Virus record (IMG/VR): IMGVR_UViG_3300049491_000379
Coordinates: 1-25,267 of that record
Strand: one strand, 5' to 3'
From: a virus
DNA: 25,267 nt
Within the stretch, counting starts at the first letter, position 1. Each line of letters begins with the position of its first letter. Positions 1,211 to 22,640 of this stretch are shown here, in pieces. Below the pieces are notes generated by a model, which did not search any database, was not told the origin of the DNA, and saw only the letters and a program-made list of their open reading frames with translations. Both the position numbers and the translations under genes were made by a program.

Positions 1211-1335
1211 CGCATCGTTACTGGCTCCACTTGTTCAATTGCAAAAACTGCCAAGAGCATACGGGTGCGCTTTGCGCTGAGGGTGCGCGCTTGCGTGGTG
1301 AGTATTTGATTTGGCTTAAGGGTAAGGTGGCTTAA
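1207..1335 (+). CDS. 42-aa Cys-rich protein between overlapping genes
   Basis: This is a 42-aa ORF. Its ATG overlaps the previous stop (ATGA at 1207-1210) and its TAA shares one base with the next ATG (TAATG at 1333-1337). The sequence begins MTHRYWLHLFNCKNCQEHTG and has a third Cys at residue 23 (ALCAEGARLRGEYLIWLK). The NCKNC pair is a possible half zinc site. Without this ORF there would be an unusual 124-bp gap in a tightly packed operon. The exact fit of both overlaps is the best evidence that it is translated. Function is unknown. Confidence 0.6.
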   Translation: MTHRYWLHLFNCKNCQEHTGALCAEGARLRGEYLIWLKGKVA

Positions 1336-1796
1336 TGGGTGAAGCGTGGACTGTTAACGATGATCGAAAACTAACTGCTTATGTTGAGCACGTTAGAAAG
1401 CTGTATTGCGATCATAAATATTTAACATTCCCTGCACCGCGAATTGGAGCCGACAGGTCGCTTGATCAGAATGCATTGATGCATGTTTGGCTAACTGAGT
1501 TTTGCTGTTATTTGGCGCGCTGCCATAAAGATCAAGTGACGGACGGAATGCTTGAGGGTATCAAACGTACCATGAAGGGATTGTTTTATAAAACCTATGC
1601 ATACGGATGGATGATTCATGATGTTACCTGTGTTTTAACAGGTCGTACAAAAAAAGATTTCACCAGTTCAAAAGACTGGAAGCGTGGCGAGATGTTTATA
1701 TTTTTGGATTGGTTACAAAACTTTGCAGCAACTAAGGGTTGCATTTTAGAAAGCAAGGGTGAGTTTGCAAAACTTAAAAGGGAGCAGAACAAGTGA
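1335..1796 (+). CDS. NinB-like recombination protein
   Basis: This is a 153-aa protein. The motif RSLDQNALMHVWLTEF (residues about 40-56) matches the signature of NinB of lambdoid phages (RSLDQNRKLW...), and the C-terminal segment KRGEMFIFLDWLQNFAATKG matches NinB's GEF...LIQAFGTERG. By family knowledge NinB (Orf) is a RecFOR-like recombination mediator that binds single-stranded DNA. The place in a nin-like region, upstream of a DUF1064 nuclease and a Q-like gene, fits. The central part has extra Cys and Tyr residues and diverges from lambda NinB, so this may be a distant family member. It overlaps the next gene by 4 bases (GTGA). Confidence 0.6.
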   Translation: MGEAWTVNDDRKLTAYVEHVRKLYCDHKYLTFPAPRIGADRSLDQNALMHVWLTEFCCYLARCHKDQVTDGMLEGIKRTMKGLFYKTYAYGWMIHDVTCVLTGRTKKDFTSSKDWKRGEMFIFLDWLQNFAATKGCILESKGEFAKLKREQNK

Positions 1797-2038
1797 TTAA
1801 TAAAAAGAAATGGCACGCAGTGGAAAACGAACGCGCTCTAATTGATAAGAGCAAGGTTAAGCATTTTATAAATGTTTTCAAATCTGTAGTTGATCACTAC
1901 GGTTCAATTCGGGCGGCGGTTGAGAAAACTGGAATAGGGCAAAGCAGCTATTACCAAATGATAAACAACAATATTCTTTCGGTGTGCGTTGCGCACAGAA
2001 TTATGGATTCGTTTGCGGAGATTGCGCCGTATAAATAA
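1793..2038 (+). CDS. Small HTH-like protein ending in an attC site
   Basis: This is an 81-aa ORF with a GTG start overlapping the previous stop (GTGA, 1793-1796). Residues about 25-60 (FKSVVDHYGSIRAAVEKTGI then SSYYQMINN) look like a helix-turn-helix of the kind in small phage regulators: GSIRAAVEKTG as the first helices and QSSYYQMI as the recognition helix. No family is recognised with confidence. Its TAA stop (2036-2038) lies inside the first conserved box of an attC-like site, the same geometry as the two following ORFs. That raises the question whether this ORF is a phage gene or the first cassette gene. Confidence 0.55.
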   Translation: MINKKKWHAVENERALIDKSKVKHFINVFKSVVDHYGSIRAAVEKTGIGQSSYYQMINNNILSVCVAHRIMDSFAEIAPYK

Positions 2039-2115
2039 CGCCTTAATAACGCTGCGGCTGACGATTTAAAACATTGCGACATTCTCATTCCGTCGCGTTC
2101 ATTTACTTGTTATGT
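2033..2115 (+). other. attC-like recombination site 1 (integron cassette site)
   Basis: The outer boxes are AATAAC (2034-2039, R'') and GTTATGT (2109-2115, R'). The inner boxes are TTAATAACGC (2043-2052, L'') and GCGTTCATTTA (2095-2105, L'). They pair as imperfect inverted repeats with one extra unpaired base in the right arm (C2100), the extrahelical base expected of attC. The length of 83 bp is in the usual attC range. The box order R''-L''-L'-R' is correct for cassettes read on the + strand. Confidence 0.7.
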
Positions 2116-2141
2116 GCTGGAACTTGAGAGAATTTATAAAA

Positions 2142-2438
2142 ATGGATAGCGGAAAAATATTAGAAATTGCACACCGAACCGCGTGGAAATACAAGCATAG
2201 CAGTGACCCACACCACTCAGACACGTATACATTTAACGCGCACACAATGATTGATTTTGCGCGCAAAGTTTCTGAGCGTGAGGCACCGTGCCTTAATTTC
2301 TGCGAACAGCAAGCATTTAAGATTGAGATTAGAAAACTAAAGGCAGCGATACGCGAAACGATTGAAGATAATTTACATTTGGCAGACGGTGAAAACTGTA
2401 CATTAATTAAATTAAAGCGCGCTATTGGGTACACATAA
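2142..2438 (+). CDS. Cassette A protein, unknown function
   Basis: This is a 98-aa ORF; ATG 2142 is chosen because an in-frame ATG at 2112 falls inside the attC R' box. The ribosome site is weak (GAGAG at 2126-2130). The protein is soluble, charged and mostly helical: MDSGKILEIAHRTAWKYK, then a His/Ser-rich HSSDPHHSDTY, then FNAHTMIDFARKVSEREA and a helical C-terminus. The phrase HTMIDFARKVSE resembles segments of small accessory proteins of phages, but I cannot name a family. The TAA stop lies within the R'' box of the next attC site. From GTTATG at 2109 to the next GTTATG at 2559 the unit is a 450-bp element, a typical gene-cassette size. Confidence 0.6.
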   Translation: MDSGKILEIAHRTAWKYKHSSDPHHSDTYTFNAHTMIDFARKVSEREAPCLNFCEQQAFKIEIRKLKAAIRETIEDNLHLADGENCTLIKLKRAIGYT

Positions 2439-2565
2439 CGCCAAGCTAAGCGGCAGGATTTAAGTTGTGATTTTGTGATAAAAATTTACGAAGTAAATTC
2501 ACAAAAGCGCGACTTAAAGACTGTCCAAGGAGCGTAGCGACTGGTGCTTGAGCGCCTTGTTATGC
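2433..2565 (+). other. attC recombination site 2, well formed
   Basis: This is the clearest attC of the window. R'' is ACATAAC (2433-2439), L'' GCTAAGC (2445-2451), L' GCTTGAGC (2546-2553) and R' GTTATGC (2559-2565). L'' and L' pair perfectly except for one extra G at 2550, the classical extrahelical base. The centre folds further: TTTAAGT (2459-2465) with ACTTAAA (2512-2518), TTTTGTG (2471-2477) with CACAAAA (2500-2506), and AATTTAC (2483-2489) with GTAAATT (2493-2499). The edges TAACGCC...TAAGC and GCTTGAGCG..TTGTTA also resemble well-known resistance-cassette attC sites. The length is 133 bp. Confidence 0.85.
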
Positions 2566-2598
2566 AAATTTAACGAAGTGATATTTTGGGGTAAACAA

Positions 2599-2925
2599 AT
2601 GAAAATTGCAAAGGCTAGCAAAGAAGACATGGACATGGCTATTGACCTTGTTTCAGCTTTAGAAACATTAGAGCGCGGTTATATTCCGAGCCAAATGGAC
2701 GAGGGTGACGAAGACGGTTATGGGTATTTTGATATTGACGATAAAACCCAGTGCCGAGAAGTATTGAAGGTAATTTTAGGCATTTTAGAAAAAGGCTCAA
2801 TTGGCCGCGTGGTTTGGGGCATGGCTACGCTAATTGATCCGGCAAACAAAGTGGTAAACCCTGACGCTAACGCTCTTGAGTTACACCCAGAATTGCAAAA
2901 ACTACTTTCAGCGCAAAGTGCATAA
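2599..2925 (+). CDS. Cassette B protein, unknown function
   Basis: This is a 108-aa ORF; ATG 2599 has GGGG at 2588-2591, 7 bases upstream, and any earlier start would fall in the attC site. The protein starts MKIAKASKEDMDMAIDLVSALETLER, has an acidic middle (DEGDEDGYGYFDIDD) and ends ALELHPELQKLLSAQSA. It looks soluble and helical, with no membrane segment or recognisable catalytic motif. Similar short proteins occur in phages and proteobacterial genomes, but I cannot assign a function. The stop TAA (2923-2925) lies in the R'' box of a third attC-like site. It is on the same strand as the phage operon and probably co-transcribed with it. Confidence 0.6.
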   Translation: MKIAKASKEDMDMAIDLVSALETLERGYIPSQMDEGDEDGYGYFDIDDKTQCREVLKVILGILEKGSIGRVVWGMATLIDPANKVVNPDANALELHPELQKLLSAQSA

Positions 2926-2979
2926 CAGCGGAATATACGGCCTGCGCCGTGTAACTCCAATTGCGCTATTTTTAATGTG
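2920..2979 (+). other. Degenerate attC-like site 3
   Basis: A good R'' box, GCATAAC (2920-2926), holds the stop of the preceding ORF. The centre is a hairpin, ACGGC-CTGC-GCCGT (2937-2950). The inner-arm pairing is partial (AGCGGAAT against ATTGCGCT), and the right end reads TTTAATGTG (2971-2979) in place of GTTATGT. This looks like a decayed attC or the fusion point between the last cassette and phage DNA. Confidence 0.45.
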
Positions 2980-3019: not shown

Positions 3020-3364
3020 GTGAATAAAAAATTGCTTGCGCTTGGCAGATTAAAATCTGGTGTGATGAACAAAACCGAATCGGCTTACGCTTCTCGATTG
3101 GAGTTGCTGAAACAATCTGGCGAAATAGTTTGGTATAAATTTGAGGGCATGAAGTTCAGGCTTGCGGACAATACGTTTTACTCGCCTGATTTTATTGTGA
3201 TGCTGGCTAACGGGGCTCTACAGTCTCATGAGGTGAAAGGTTTTTGGACGGATGATGCGAGAGTAAAAATAAAAGTTGCTGCTGATATGTATCCGCTTGA
3301 ATTTTTGGCTGTAAAGGTAAAGCCAAAAAAATCCGGTGGTGGTTGGGAAGTTGAATCATTTTGA
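3020..3364 (+). CDS. DUF1064 phage nuclease (VRR-NUC/resolvase-like)
   Basis: This is a 114-aa protein, GTG start at 3020. It matches the DUF1064 family closely: NKTESAYASRLELLKQSGEI at the front, then WYKFEGMKFRLADNTFYSPD, then HEVKGFWTDDARVKIKVAA. The residues E (NKTE), D (YSPDF) and E.K (HEVKG) form a PD-(D/E)xK-type nuclease core. These proteins often sit where RusA-like Holliday-junction resolvases sit in lambdoid phages, just before the Q antiterminator, and are thought to trim branched DNA before packaging. The stop overlaps the next start (TGATG, 3362-3366). The family call is confident; the substrate is inferred. Confidence 0.85.
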   Translation: MNKKLLALGRLKSGVMNKTESAYASRLELLKQSGEIVWYKFEGMKFRLADNTFYSPDFIVMLANGALQSHEVKGFWTDDARVKIKVAADMYPLEFLAVKVKPKKSGGGWEVESF

Positions 3365-3750
3365 TGGCGGTAAATATGATAAAAGCAGATAAGCGAACTG
3401 TTCATGAGTGGTTACAGCTTTGGGGTGAGTGGGAGCGATCTGGCGCTAATTACTTGGCTCACCTATCGCCTCCATCAAACATGGAAATAGTAATTCGTGG
3501 AAACGTCCAGCAGGTTCAACATTCGTTTTCGCCATCCCTCGATGATGATGAGGCTATGTGGTTTTGTAAACTTATGAGCAAGCTTAAATCAGTTCGCCCA
3601 GATGCGTACAGCTTGTTTCAAATGGTTGATATTTGGCAGATGTCTATGCGTGAAGCTTCTCGTAAACTTGGGATTAGTTTTGAGTCGGCTGCTCGCCTGT
3701 ATGAAAATGCCATTGGTATCATTGAGGGTATGATGCTAGCCATTGCTTGA
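3364..3750 (+). CDS. Probable Q-type late antiterminator
   Basis: The 128-aa protein starts at ATG 3364, overlapping the upstream stop (TGATG). It begins with a WLQLWGEWERSGANYLAH segment, typical of phage antitermination Q proteins (W-W-W pattern), and ends with a helix-turn-helix-like segment MSMREASRKLGISFESAARL (residues about 93-112). Position is the strongest argument: it is the last gene before a promoter followed at once by a terminator and then the holin gene, exactly the lambda Q-pR'-tR'-S layout. By family knowledge Q binds near pR' and lets RNA polymerase pass terminators in the late operon. No direct motif proves this; it could be a sigma-like or other regulatory protein. Confidence 0.55.
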   Translation: MAVNMIKADKRTVHEWLQLWGEWERSGANYLAHLSPPSNMEIVIRGNVQQVQHSFSPSLDDDEAMWFCKLMSKLKSVRPDAYSLFQMVDIWQMSMREASRKLGISFESAARLYENAIGIIEGMMLAIA

Positions 3751-21416: not shown

Positions 21417-21545
21417 ATGAACGAAAAAGATGCTGGAACCGTTGGGAAATTATTGGCAATTTCTGTACTAATTCTTTCCGCAGGCCTGTCTATTGCAGCA
21501 ACAATATGGGCTGCATCGCACCTTTTTCATTCTCTAGTCAATTGA
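21417..21545 (+). CDS. Small single-pass membrane protein (possible moron)
   Basis: This is a 42-aa ORF, MNEKDAGTVGKLLAISVLIL then SAGLSIAATIWAASHLFHSL, with one clear transmembrane helix (about 11-35) and a charged N-terminus. ATG 21417 has AGGTGG at 21407-21412; an in-frame ATG at 21369 would add 16 residues and is possible. It lies after the late terminator and so needs its own promoter; TTGAAT (21340-21345) and TAACAA (21364-21369) with 18-bp spacing is a weak candidate. It ends 12 bases inside the convergent antirepressor gene. The layout is that of a moron, for example for exclusion; function unknown. Confidence 0.5.
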   Translation: MNEKDAGTVGKLLAISVLILSAGLSIAATIWAASHLFHSLVN

Positions 21546-22412
21546 TCCTACACTTTTACGGGTGTGCGCTCTTTCAACCATATACAGGGCAGAGCTTCTT
21601 ATGTCCTCAAGCCGATTTCTGTACACTTCGGTTAAATGCTGCAAACTTATTAATTCCTTCCGCAGTTTTGAAACGTCCTCTATCGACAAGGTGATATTTT
21701 TCCCTGCATTCCGCTCAAGAATTACAAGAAACTTGCTTAGGTCTGTATTCCATCCGCAGTTATGCAGATCATTAAACGCGTAAAGGTGGTGTTGGCCTGT
21801 TGCCGGGAAATTTATATTCAGCACTGGCGCAAGCTCCAGTTGCCCGCCTTCTAAATATTCGCCTTCCAGCACCTTAATAGGCGCACCGAGATACTTGCAC
21901 AACTCATTAAACCGGGTGCATGGAATATCCTTGTAGGTGCCAACATTAAAGCGGTCTTTAACTGATCGCCAAACGGACTGAAAGGAGCTGCCCGGCTGTG
22001 TAGCAAGGTAAGACACTCGCGCCTGAATGTGGCGCTGCATGGCTGGGGTAAGTGGCTGAGGGAGTTTTTTAGCCTCCTGCTTTTTTGATAGCTCGGCAGC
22101 CATTGCGTTAAAGGCATTAATAAACGCCTCTTTAATTTGGGCGGCTTTCTTGCCAGTGAAACCCATAACCAAAAACATGAAACCGTCTTTGGTCATTTCC
22201 CACATGGGTAGTTTGCGACCTGTTGAGTCTTGAAATTCACTGGGCTCAAAATTGAGCTGAGTGAACTCTGGCGAGCATTCAAGCGATTCAAGTTTACGAA
22301 TTACGTTTTTATGTAGCTTGCCAAATGCCTCAGAAACTTTAATTGAGTTTGTGCGAATTTGGTTATGGTGAAAAATGATTGCGTCTTGCGGAATTGATGC
22401 GATGGCGTTCAT
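21534..22412 (-). CDS. rha: Rha family regulator with ORF6C domain (antirepressor type)
   Basis: This is a 292-aa protein. The N-terminal Rha domain is clear: RTNSIKVSEAFGKLHKNVIR, then KLPMWEMTKDGFMFLVMGFT and GKKAAQIKEAFINAFNAMAA. The C-terminal half matches ORF6C (MQRHIQARVSYLATQPGSSF then QSVWRSVKDRFNVGTYKDIP), followed by a coiled tail. Rha proteins are phage regulators; those with Ant/ORF6 C-terminal parts usually act as antirepressors that help induction. The ribosome site is AGGTAA upstream of ATG. The gene has a 245-nt leader starting at a strong promoter with an inverted repeat, so expression is probably controlled at both promoter and RNA levels. Confidence 0.85.
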   Translation of the reverse strand: MNAIASIPQDAIIFHHNQIRTNSIKVSEAFGKLHKNVIRKLESLECSPEFTQLNFEPSEFQDSTGRKLPMWEMTKDGFMFLVMGFTGKKAAQIKEAFINAFNAMAAELSKKQEAKKLPQPLTPAMQRHIQARVSYLATQPGSSFQSVWRSVKDRFNVGTYKDIPCTRFNELCKYLGAPIKVLEGEYLEGGQLELAPVLNINFPATGQHHLYAFNDLHNCGWNTDLSKFLVILERNAGKNITLSIEDVSKLRKELISLQHLTEVYRNRLEDIRSSALYMVERAHTRKSVGSID

Positions 22413-22443: not shown

Positions 22444-22640
22444 GCCCCCTTTTGAGAGGGGCGGCCAAGCGCTCAAAACCGGAAACAGACGGCGGGCATA
22501 TTCCCAGAACTCAACAACCCGAAAATGTAGACTTCAGACGGCTGGAACTTGGTATTGTATTAGCCACACGCTCGGCCATAGCAAAAACTATGGGCGAAAA
22601 AAAACCGCAAAGGCTATCGGGTGCGGATTCCGCTGTTTCC
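22444..22640 (-). ncRNA. Structured leader of the antirepressor gene, C4-like candidate
   Basis: Within the 455-bp gene-free stretch 22413-22867, the transcribed leader has several perfect pairings: CCATAG (22576-22581) with CTATGG (22588-22593), GCCCC (22444-22448) with GGGGC (22458-22462), and a long-range match of CTGTTTCC (22633-22640) to GGAAACAG (22481-22488). Phage P1 and related phages make the C4 antisense RNA from such a leader upstream of an antirepressor gene; the promoter-leader-antirepressor order is the same here. I cannot confirm the C4 family without a covariance search. The + strand frame here (22452-22670, TTG start) is not treated as a gene. Confidence 0.35.

Follow-up and report, generated by a model that had tools for sequence, protein, structure and literature searches.

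The left end of the 25,267-bp IMG/VR virus record that we analysed in full (the window) forms a nin-like early region, in which positions 2033-2925 are probably a two-cassette integron array without an integrase gene, drawn from a pool of phage cassettes with inverted genes and moved by a host integrase. The central proposal of a preliminary description of this DNA, that integron-type cassettes with attC sites lie in a phage early operon, was supported, also when it was examined with attC models.

Two attC sites in a phage early operon

The left-end gene order is primosomal protein, NinB, small HTH-like gene, cassette array, resolvase-like gene, antiterminator Q, and holin. Upstream of the array lie the gene for the NinB/Orf recombination mediator (1335-1796, plus strand; phrog_72, E 3.5e-12) and the small HTH-like phage gene (1793-2038, plus strand), an ORF with a weak HTH match whose stop codon TAA (2036-2038) falls within the TAAC box of attC site 1 (2033-2115, minus strand in attC polarity). 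Cassette ORF 1 (2142-2438, plus strand, 98 aa) ends with a TAA (2436-2438) inside the box of attC site 2 (2433-2565, minus strand), and cassette ORF 2 (2599-2925, plus strand, 108 aa; 99% aa identity in L002, 37% in L003) ends with a TAA (2923-2925) that doubles as the TAA of the array-terminal element, TAACAGCGGAATATACGGCCTGCGCCGTGTAACTCC... (2923-2970). The downstream flank consists of a Holliday-junction-resolvase-like gene (3020-3364, plus strand; phrog_190, E 1.8e-30) and the gene for antitermination protein Q (3361-3750, plus strand; PF06530, E 9e-9). The placing of two small ORFs, both on the plus strand, between the sites of a nin-like region was therefore correct. The crossover at site 1 would fall between 2038 and 2039 (TAA/C), and cassette 1 would extend from 2039 to 2438 (plus strand), comprising the site body, a ribosome-binding region, ORF 1 and its stop TAA; we infer these limits from the box positions and from the exchange boundaries of other cassettes.

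Two covariance models were used to identify the sites. Model R1 was built from 47 sites of other phage contigs (alignment A1) and contained no window sequence. Model R2 was built from 26 attC sites. Of these, 25 lie beside integron-integrase genes in gammaproteobacterial genomes and were located by TIGR02249 and structure alone; the other is that of aadA1 of plasmid R100. R1 matched 2033-2115 at 51.5 bits (E 7e-10) and 2433-2565 at 46.6 bits (E 1e-8), and gave no match across 457 kb of related phage regions. When R2 was run on the whole 25-kb window it matched 2433-2565 at 23.9 bits (E 8e-4), as expected from the preliminary description; in an unfiltered 2-kb scan it matched 2033-2115 at 13.3 bits (E 0.02), which taken alone is weak support. 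Besides both window sites, R2 matched most phage arrays. An Rfam scan of the window gave no attC model match, its one match being sRNA-Xcc1 (see below).

The anatomy of the sites was that of attC. The TAAC/GTTA R boxes, invariant in 47 of 47 A1 sites, also occur in sites 1 and 2; the inverted pair (RYYYAAC ... GTTRRRY) can be recognised, with window outer bases, CATAAC/GTTATG, that deviate from the strict RYYYAAC consensus, as do those of many natural attC sites. In site 2 the R boxes are at 2434-2439 and 2559-2564 and the L boxes at 2445-2451 and 2546-2553, with a long central hairpin between; the L stem with one extrahelical base, noticed earlier, was confirmed, 2445-2451 pairing with 2546-2553 and G2550 being left out. 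The fold of this site had z values of -5.0 on the plus strand and -2.7 on the minus strand. In the A1 sites the L stem has eight pairs and a lone extrahelical base, which invariably falls on the 3' side relative to the gene. The covariation of these sites far exceeded that of shuffles and slid controls, although most of them had been chosen on pairing. In an unselected test on 42 sites, picked solely by TAACGCCRAG...ACTTGTTAYR without regard to the L stem, the stem was found with the extra base 3' in 30 and 5' in one; in shuffled cores each arrangement had a frequency of about 1%. With R1, Pseudoalteromonas phage H101 (PH101) also gave four sites, and Qi et al. 2023 (PMC9892861) report that attC sites of this phage recombine with attI1 through IntI1. 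We concluded from these results that sites 1 and 2 are attC sites.

Hairpins that lie between early genes, as these do, might instead be RNA regulatory or processing elements, such as terminators or RNase sites, that mimic attC, and one segment (2543-2556) fits a weak terminator pattern. However, terminator-like matches occurred at chance level, the conserved boxes fit the integrase-binding anatomy and the integrase-linked model, and whole units move between phages, so that we regard this explanation as hardly credible.

Gene and attC polarity

R2 matched both window sites on the minus strand, whereas the ORFs are on the plus strand. The extrahelical base of the window sites is on the 3' side in the gene direction, the opposite of its position in R100 aadA1 and in 34 of 35 integrase-linked sites, in which it is on the 5' side in the gene or array direction (normal polarity). 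The earlier statement that the ORFs and attC sites point the same way was therefore wrong, and the normal cassette form, an ORF in attC polarity with the attC at its 3' end, does not occur in the window. A minus-strand ORF (2099-2434) was considered as a normally oriented cassette gene; it had no family match, and it was disfavoured because the homologues found belong to the plus-strand ORF.

The inversion is systematic and extends beyond the window. Of the 203 viral sites, 183 had the longer adjoining ORF on the R1 strand, and in 126 of these the box contained the stop TAA of that ORF; at bacterial sites the gene was on the other strand, the normal orientation, in 36 of 41 cases. One Cellvibrionaceae genome has both forms, a prophage region holding an inverted array and the intI being accompanied by two normal cassettes. 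Among published phage clusters, those of H101 and MW202573 are inverted and that of TJE1 is normal; in P12002L neither R1 nor R2 found a match. This consistent reversal of gene against attC bears on how orientation is set without a Pc promoter or attI selection.

A CALIN has at least two attC sites and no intI, as does the window. The polarity also bears on whether this is an ordinary CALIN, a bacterial integron fragment that a phage took up on one occasion together with normal cassettes. The fit of the attC models agrees with this view, and such captures are published (Qi et al. 2023, PMC9892861), phage TJE1 being one that fits normal polarity. Against it stand the inverted polarity in the window and in nearly all related arrays, the common terminal element that marks the arrays, and the rarity of R1-type sites (E <= 1e-8) in Cellvibrionaceae, where they were found in only 2 of 144 genomes, in one of them in a prophage region (portal, terminase). 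This reading is already disfavoured and seems to us very improbable.

Arrays and cassettes across phages

In all, 39 viral contigs (the window and 38 others) carry the 203 R1 sites; 30 have three or more and the maximum is 11. Clean cassettes had a median length of 319 bp and a median ORF of 73 aa, which started about 21 nt past the site. Nearly all sites adjoin a small ORF; the repeats were not found dispersed in phages without cassettes, a pattern that would have spoken against the preliminary description. Two contigs, L024 and L112, have sites on both strands, as two separate arrays or stray single sites per phage. At L081 (G059:C152) a P2-like prophage region (terminase, portal) of a Cellvibrionaceae genome bears an inverted array, and so the arrays extend past one phage type.

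The arrays often end alike. Of 41 array ends, 24 had TAACAG no more than 25 nt from the final stop, against a chance probability of about 0.005 per end; usually that stop codon itself supplied the TAA, and a recognisable element then continues. Where three attC-like sites had been proposed for the window, sites 1 and 2 stood, both models placing them at exactly the coordinates proposed; the third (2920-2979), read as a decayed attC, was matched by neither R1 nor R2 and is instead the conserved array-end element. An intrinsic terminator was likewise considered, and the terminator scan gave none at that position. Taken on the minus strand, the element sits in the place equivalent to that of attI, and we suggest that it may be an attI equivalent.

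Neither ORF 1 nor ORF 2 matched a family in Pfam or PHROGs, and neither cassette protein had a tblastn match among 50,697 annotated phage records. ORF 1 has relatives within other arrays and also outside them, where L004 3397-3684, a close homologue (89% aa) without an adjoining attC site, is an ordinary phage gene. When 149 cassette ORFs were scanned, few matched known families, and these were DNA methyltransferases, Lar restriction alleviation, an Acb2/Tad1 hairpin-domain protein, RNA ligase, PAPS reductase, DUF551 and HTH. Cassette content thus leans toward counter-defence, with most ORFs outside known families. Elsewhere in the window, 22455-22577 (minus strand) matched Rfam sRNA-Xcc1 (RF02221) at 59.8 bits, above the cut-off of 53, directly upstream of a regulatory gene (21534-22412, minus strand) that we take to be Rha-like. 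In Xanthomonas, sRNA-Xcc1 shares with symE an integron cassette of reverse orientation (PMC12444791).

Exchange of cassettes was seen most directly by comparing the window with L002, a 37-kb phage. Window positions 2436-2926 (plus strand), comprising site 2 and then ORF 2, are shared with this phage (contig IMGVR_UViG_3300048672_000136) as a unit of 491 bp with 95.9% identity and TAAC at both ends. Comparison of the 25 kb of the window with the 37 kb of the other phage excluded a larger common block; outside the unit, nucleotide similarity was confined to 80 bp within an ORF 1 homologue, and the terminases of the two phages are 26% identical. L024 and L038 repeat the pattern, with 459 bp at 97% and the same kind of boundaries. 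Whole cassettes can be swapped precisely, box to box, between unrelated phages, and these cases are near-clean evidence for such movement. The comparison of related phages also supported movement, as the preliminary description had supposed: L210, the phage with the nearest relative of the window's NinB (79% aa), has no array, and cassette 2 alone occurs in an unrelated phage. Some array phages have common flanking DNA yet almost no common cassettes.

The unit was not always the same. The ORF travelled with its upstream site above background in 5/16 and with its downstream site in 1/10, both small numbers. Several pairs with 84-98% ORF protein identity have differing attC bodies; since the ORF is shared and the body is not, the 5' boundary in these pairs lies at the downstream GTTA box, not at TAAC. 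Differing bodies are not predicted by a model in which an integrase makes a single cut, and they count against our main reading; they could reflect use of both boxes, rapid turnover of the site body or homologous recombination. In one cassette (L038, minus strand, about 1640-1670) the attC body has shrunk to TAACGCCTTGTTATG, and the ORF region is 96% identical to that of the full-site L030 cassette.

Homologous recombination could also explain the exchanges as a whole, if the sites were derived from attC, no longer served as integrase substrates, and their short conserved ends were used by phages to shuffle modules. The boundary sequences of lambdoid nin regions have been proposed as sites of homologous module shuffling. 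Consistent with this idea, the phages carry no integrase, the window phage encodes the NinB recombination mediator, and the several ORFs held in common with a different site body have boundaries at the conserved ...CTTGTTATG end. On the other hand, R and L boxes and a single extrahelical base are conserved among sites of widely divergent sequence, a feature for which homology has no need, the two clearest exchanges span the whole site and end at TAAC, and the conserved ends are just ~8-12 bp. We consider this explanation unlikely.

Mobilisation and comparison with known systems

Almost all array contigs lack an integrase gene. The tyrosine recombinase family PF00589 was absent from 30 of 32 records and TIGR02249 (IntI) from 27 further viral records; the window record, possibly incomplete, likewise has no PF00589 match and so lacks the intI of a complete integron. 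Many of the records are fragments, so a missing integrase is no proof of absence. Among 185 gammaproteobacterial genomes sampled, 72 had an IntI scoring above the family cut-off; it is also encoded by the two Cellvibrionaceae genomes in which R1 arrays were found. With array phages that mostly lack an integrase and array-bearing bacteria that encode IntI, the mechanism that fits best is action of the host IntI in trans, and it is likely that this enzyme moves the phage cassettes.

We propose that the mobile unit would consist, in the gene direction, of the attC body, the ribosome-binding region, the small ORF and the stop TAA. The cut would be at TAA/C, so that each junction would recreate the stop codon of the preceding gene. 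A host integron integrase would recognise the folded phage strand in trans and excise or insert units between attC sites, with the conserved terminal element closing the array. Cassettes would in this way be swapped among phages that infect integron-bearing hosts, and the inserted genes would be transcribed together with the phage early operon, as was suggested before. The arrays may serve phages as a store from which small early genes and anti-defence genes are drawn.

The results point to a pool of genes on the phage side that draws on integron chemistry in trans. Much more tentatively, we suggest as one possibility that phages own a shared mobile cassette system, made up of inverted attC-ORF units with the stop codon at the cut, beside an attI-like terminal element, moved by host integrases, and supplying different kinds of phage with small early and counter-defence genes from one shared stock, a parallel to the stocks of anti-phage cassettes that bacterial integrons were recently reported to carry.

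The preliminary description knew of few, if any, such clusters in phages; that view has been overtaken by Qi et al. 2023 (PMC9892861), who reported 17 CALIN-type clusters among phage genomes and saw IntI1 recombine five of the six sites they tested. Although attC sites in phages were already known, the inverted polarity, the terminal element and the box-to-box exchange appear to be new; our literature search, for which preprints and most closed papers were beyond reach, found no description of inverted phage cassettes, the terminal element or inter-phage cassette exchange. The phage CALINs of Qi et al. (PH101/H101, MW202573, TJE1, P12002L) resemble the window in having attC sites and small ORFs without an integrase gene, and H101 and MW202573, when scored with our models, share its inversion, whereas TJE1 does not; inversion, terminal element and exchange between phages are undescribed in the main-text parts of that paper (PMC9892861). 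The symE/sRNA-Xcc1 cassette of Xanthomonas integrons (PMC12444791) also has its gene against the normal direction, but it is a single exception among bacterial cassettes, whereas the phage inversion is a systematic rule. Sedentary chromosomal integrons share with the window the R and L boxes, the one extrahelical base and the tandem single-ORF cassettes; the phage arrays differ from them in having no intI or proven attI, and ORFs that are small and of opposite polarity. The lambdoid nin region is, like the window array, an early-operon block of exchangeable small genes; in the window array, however, the boundaries are attC hairpins.
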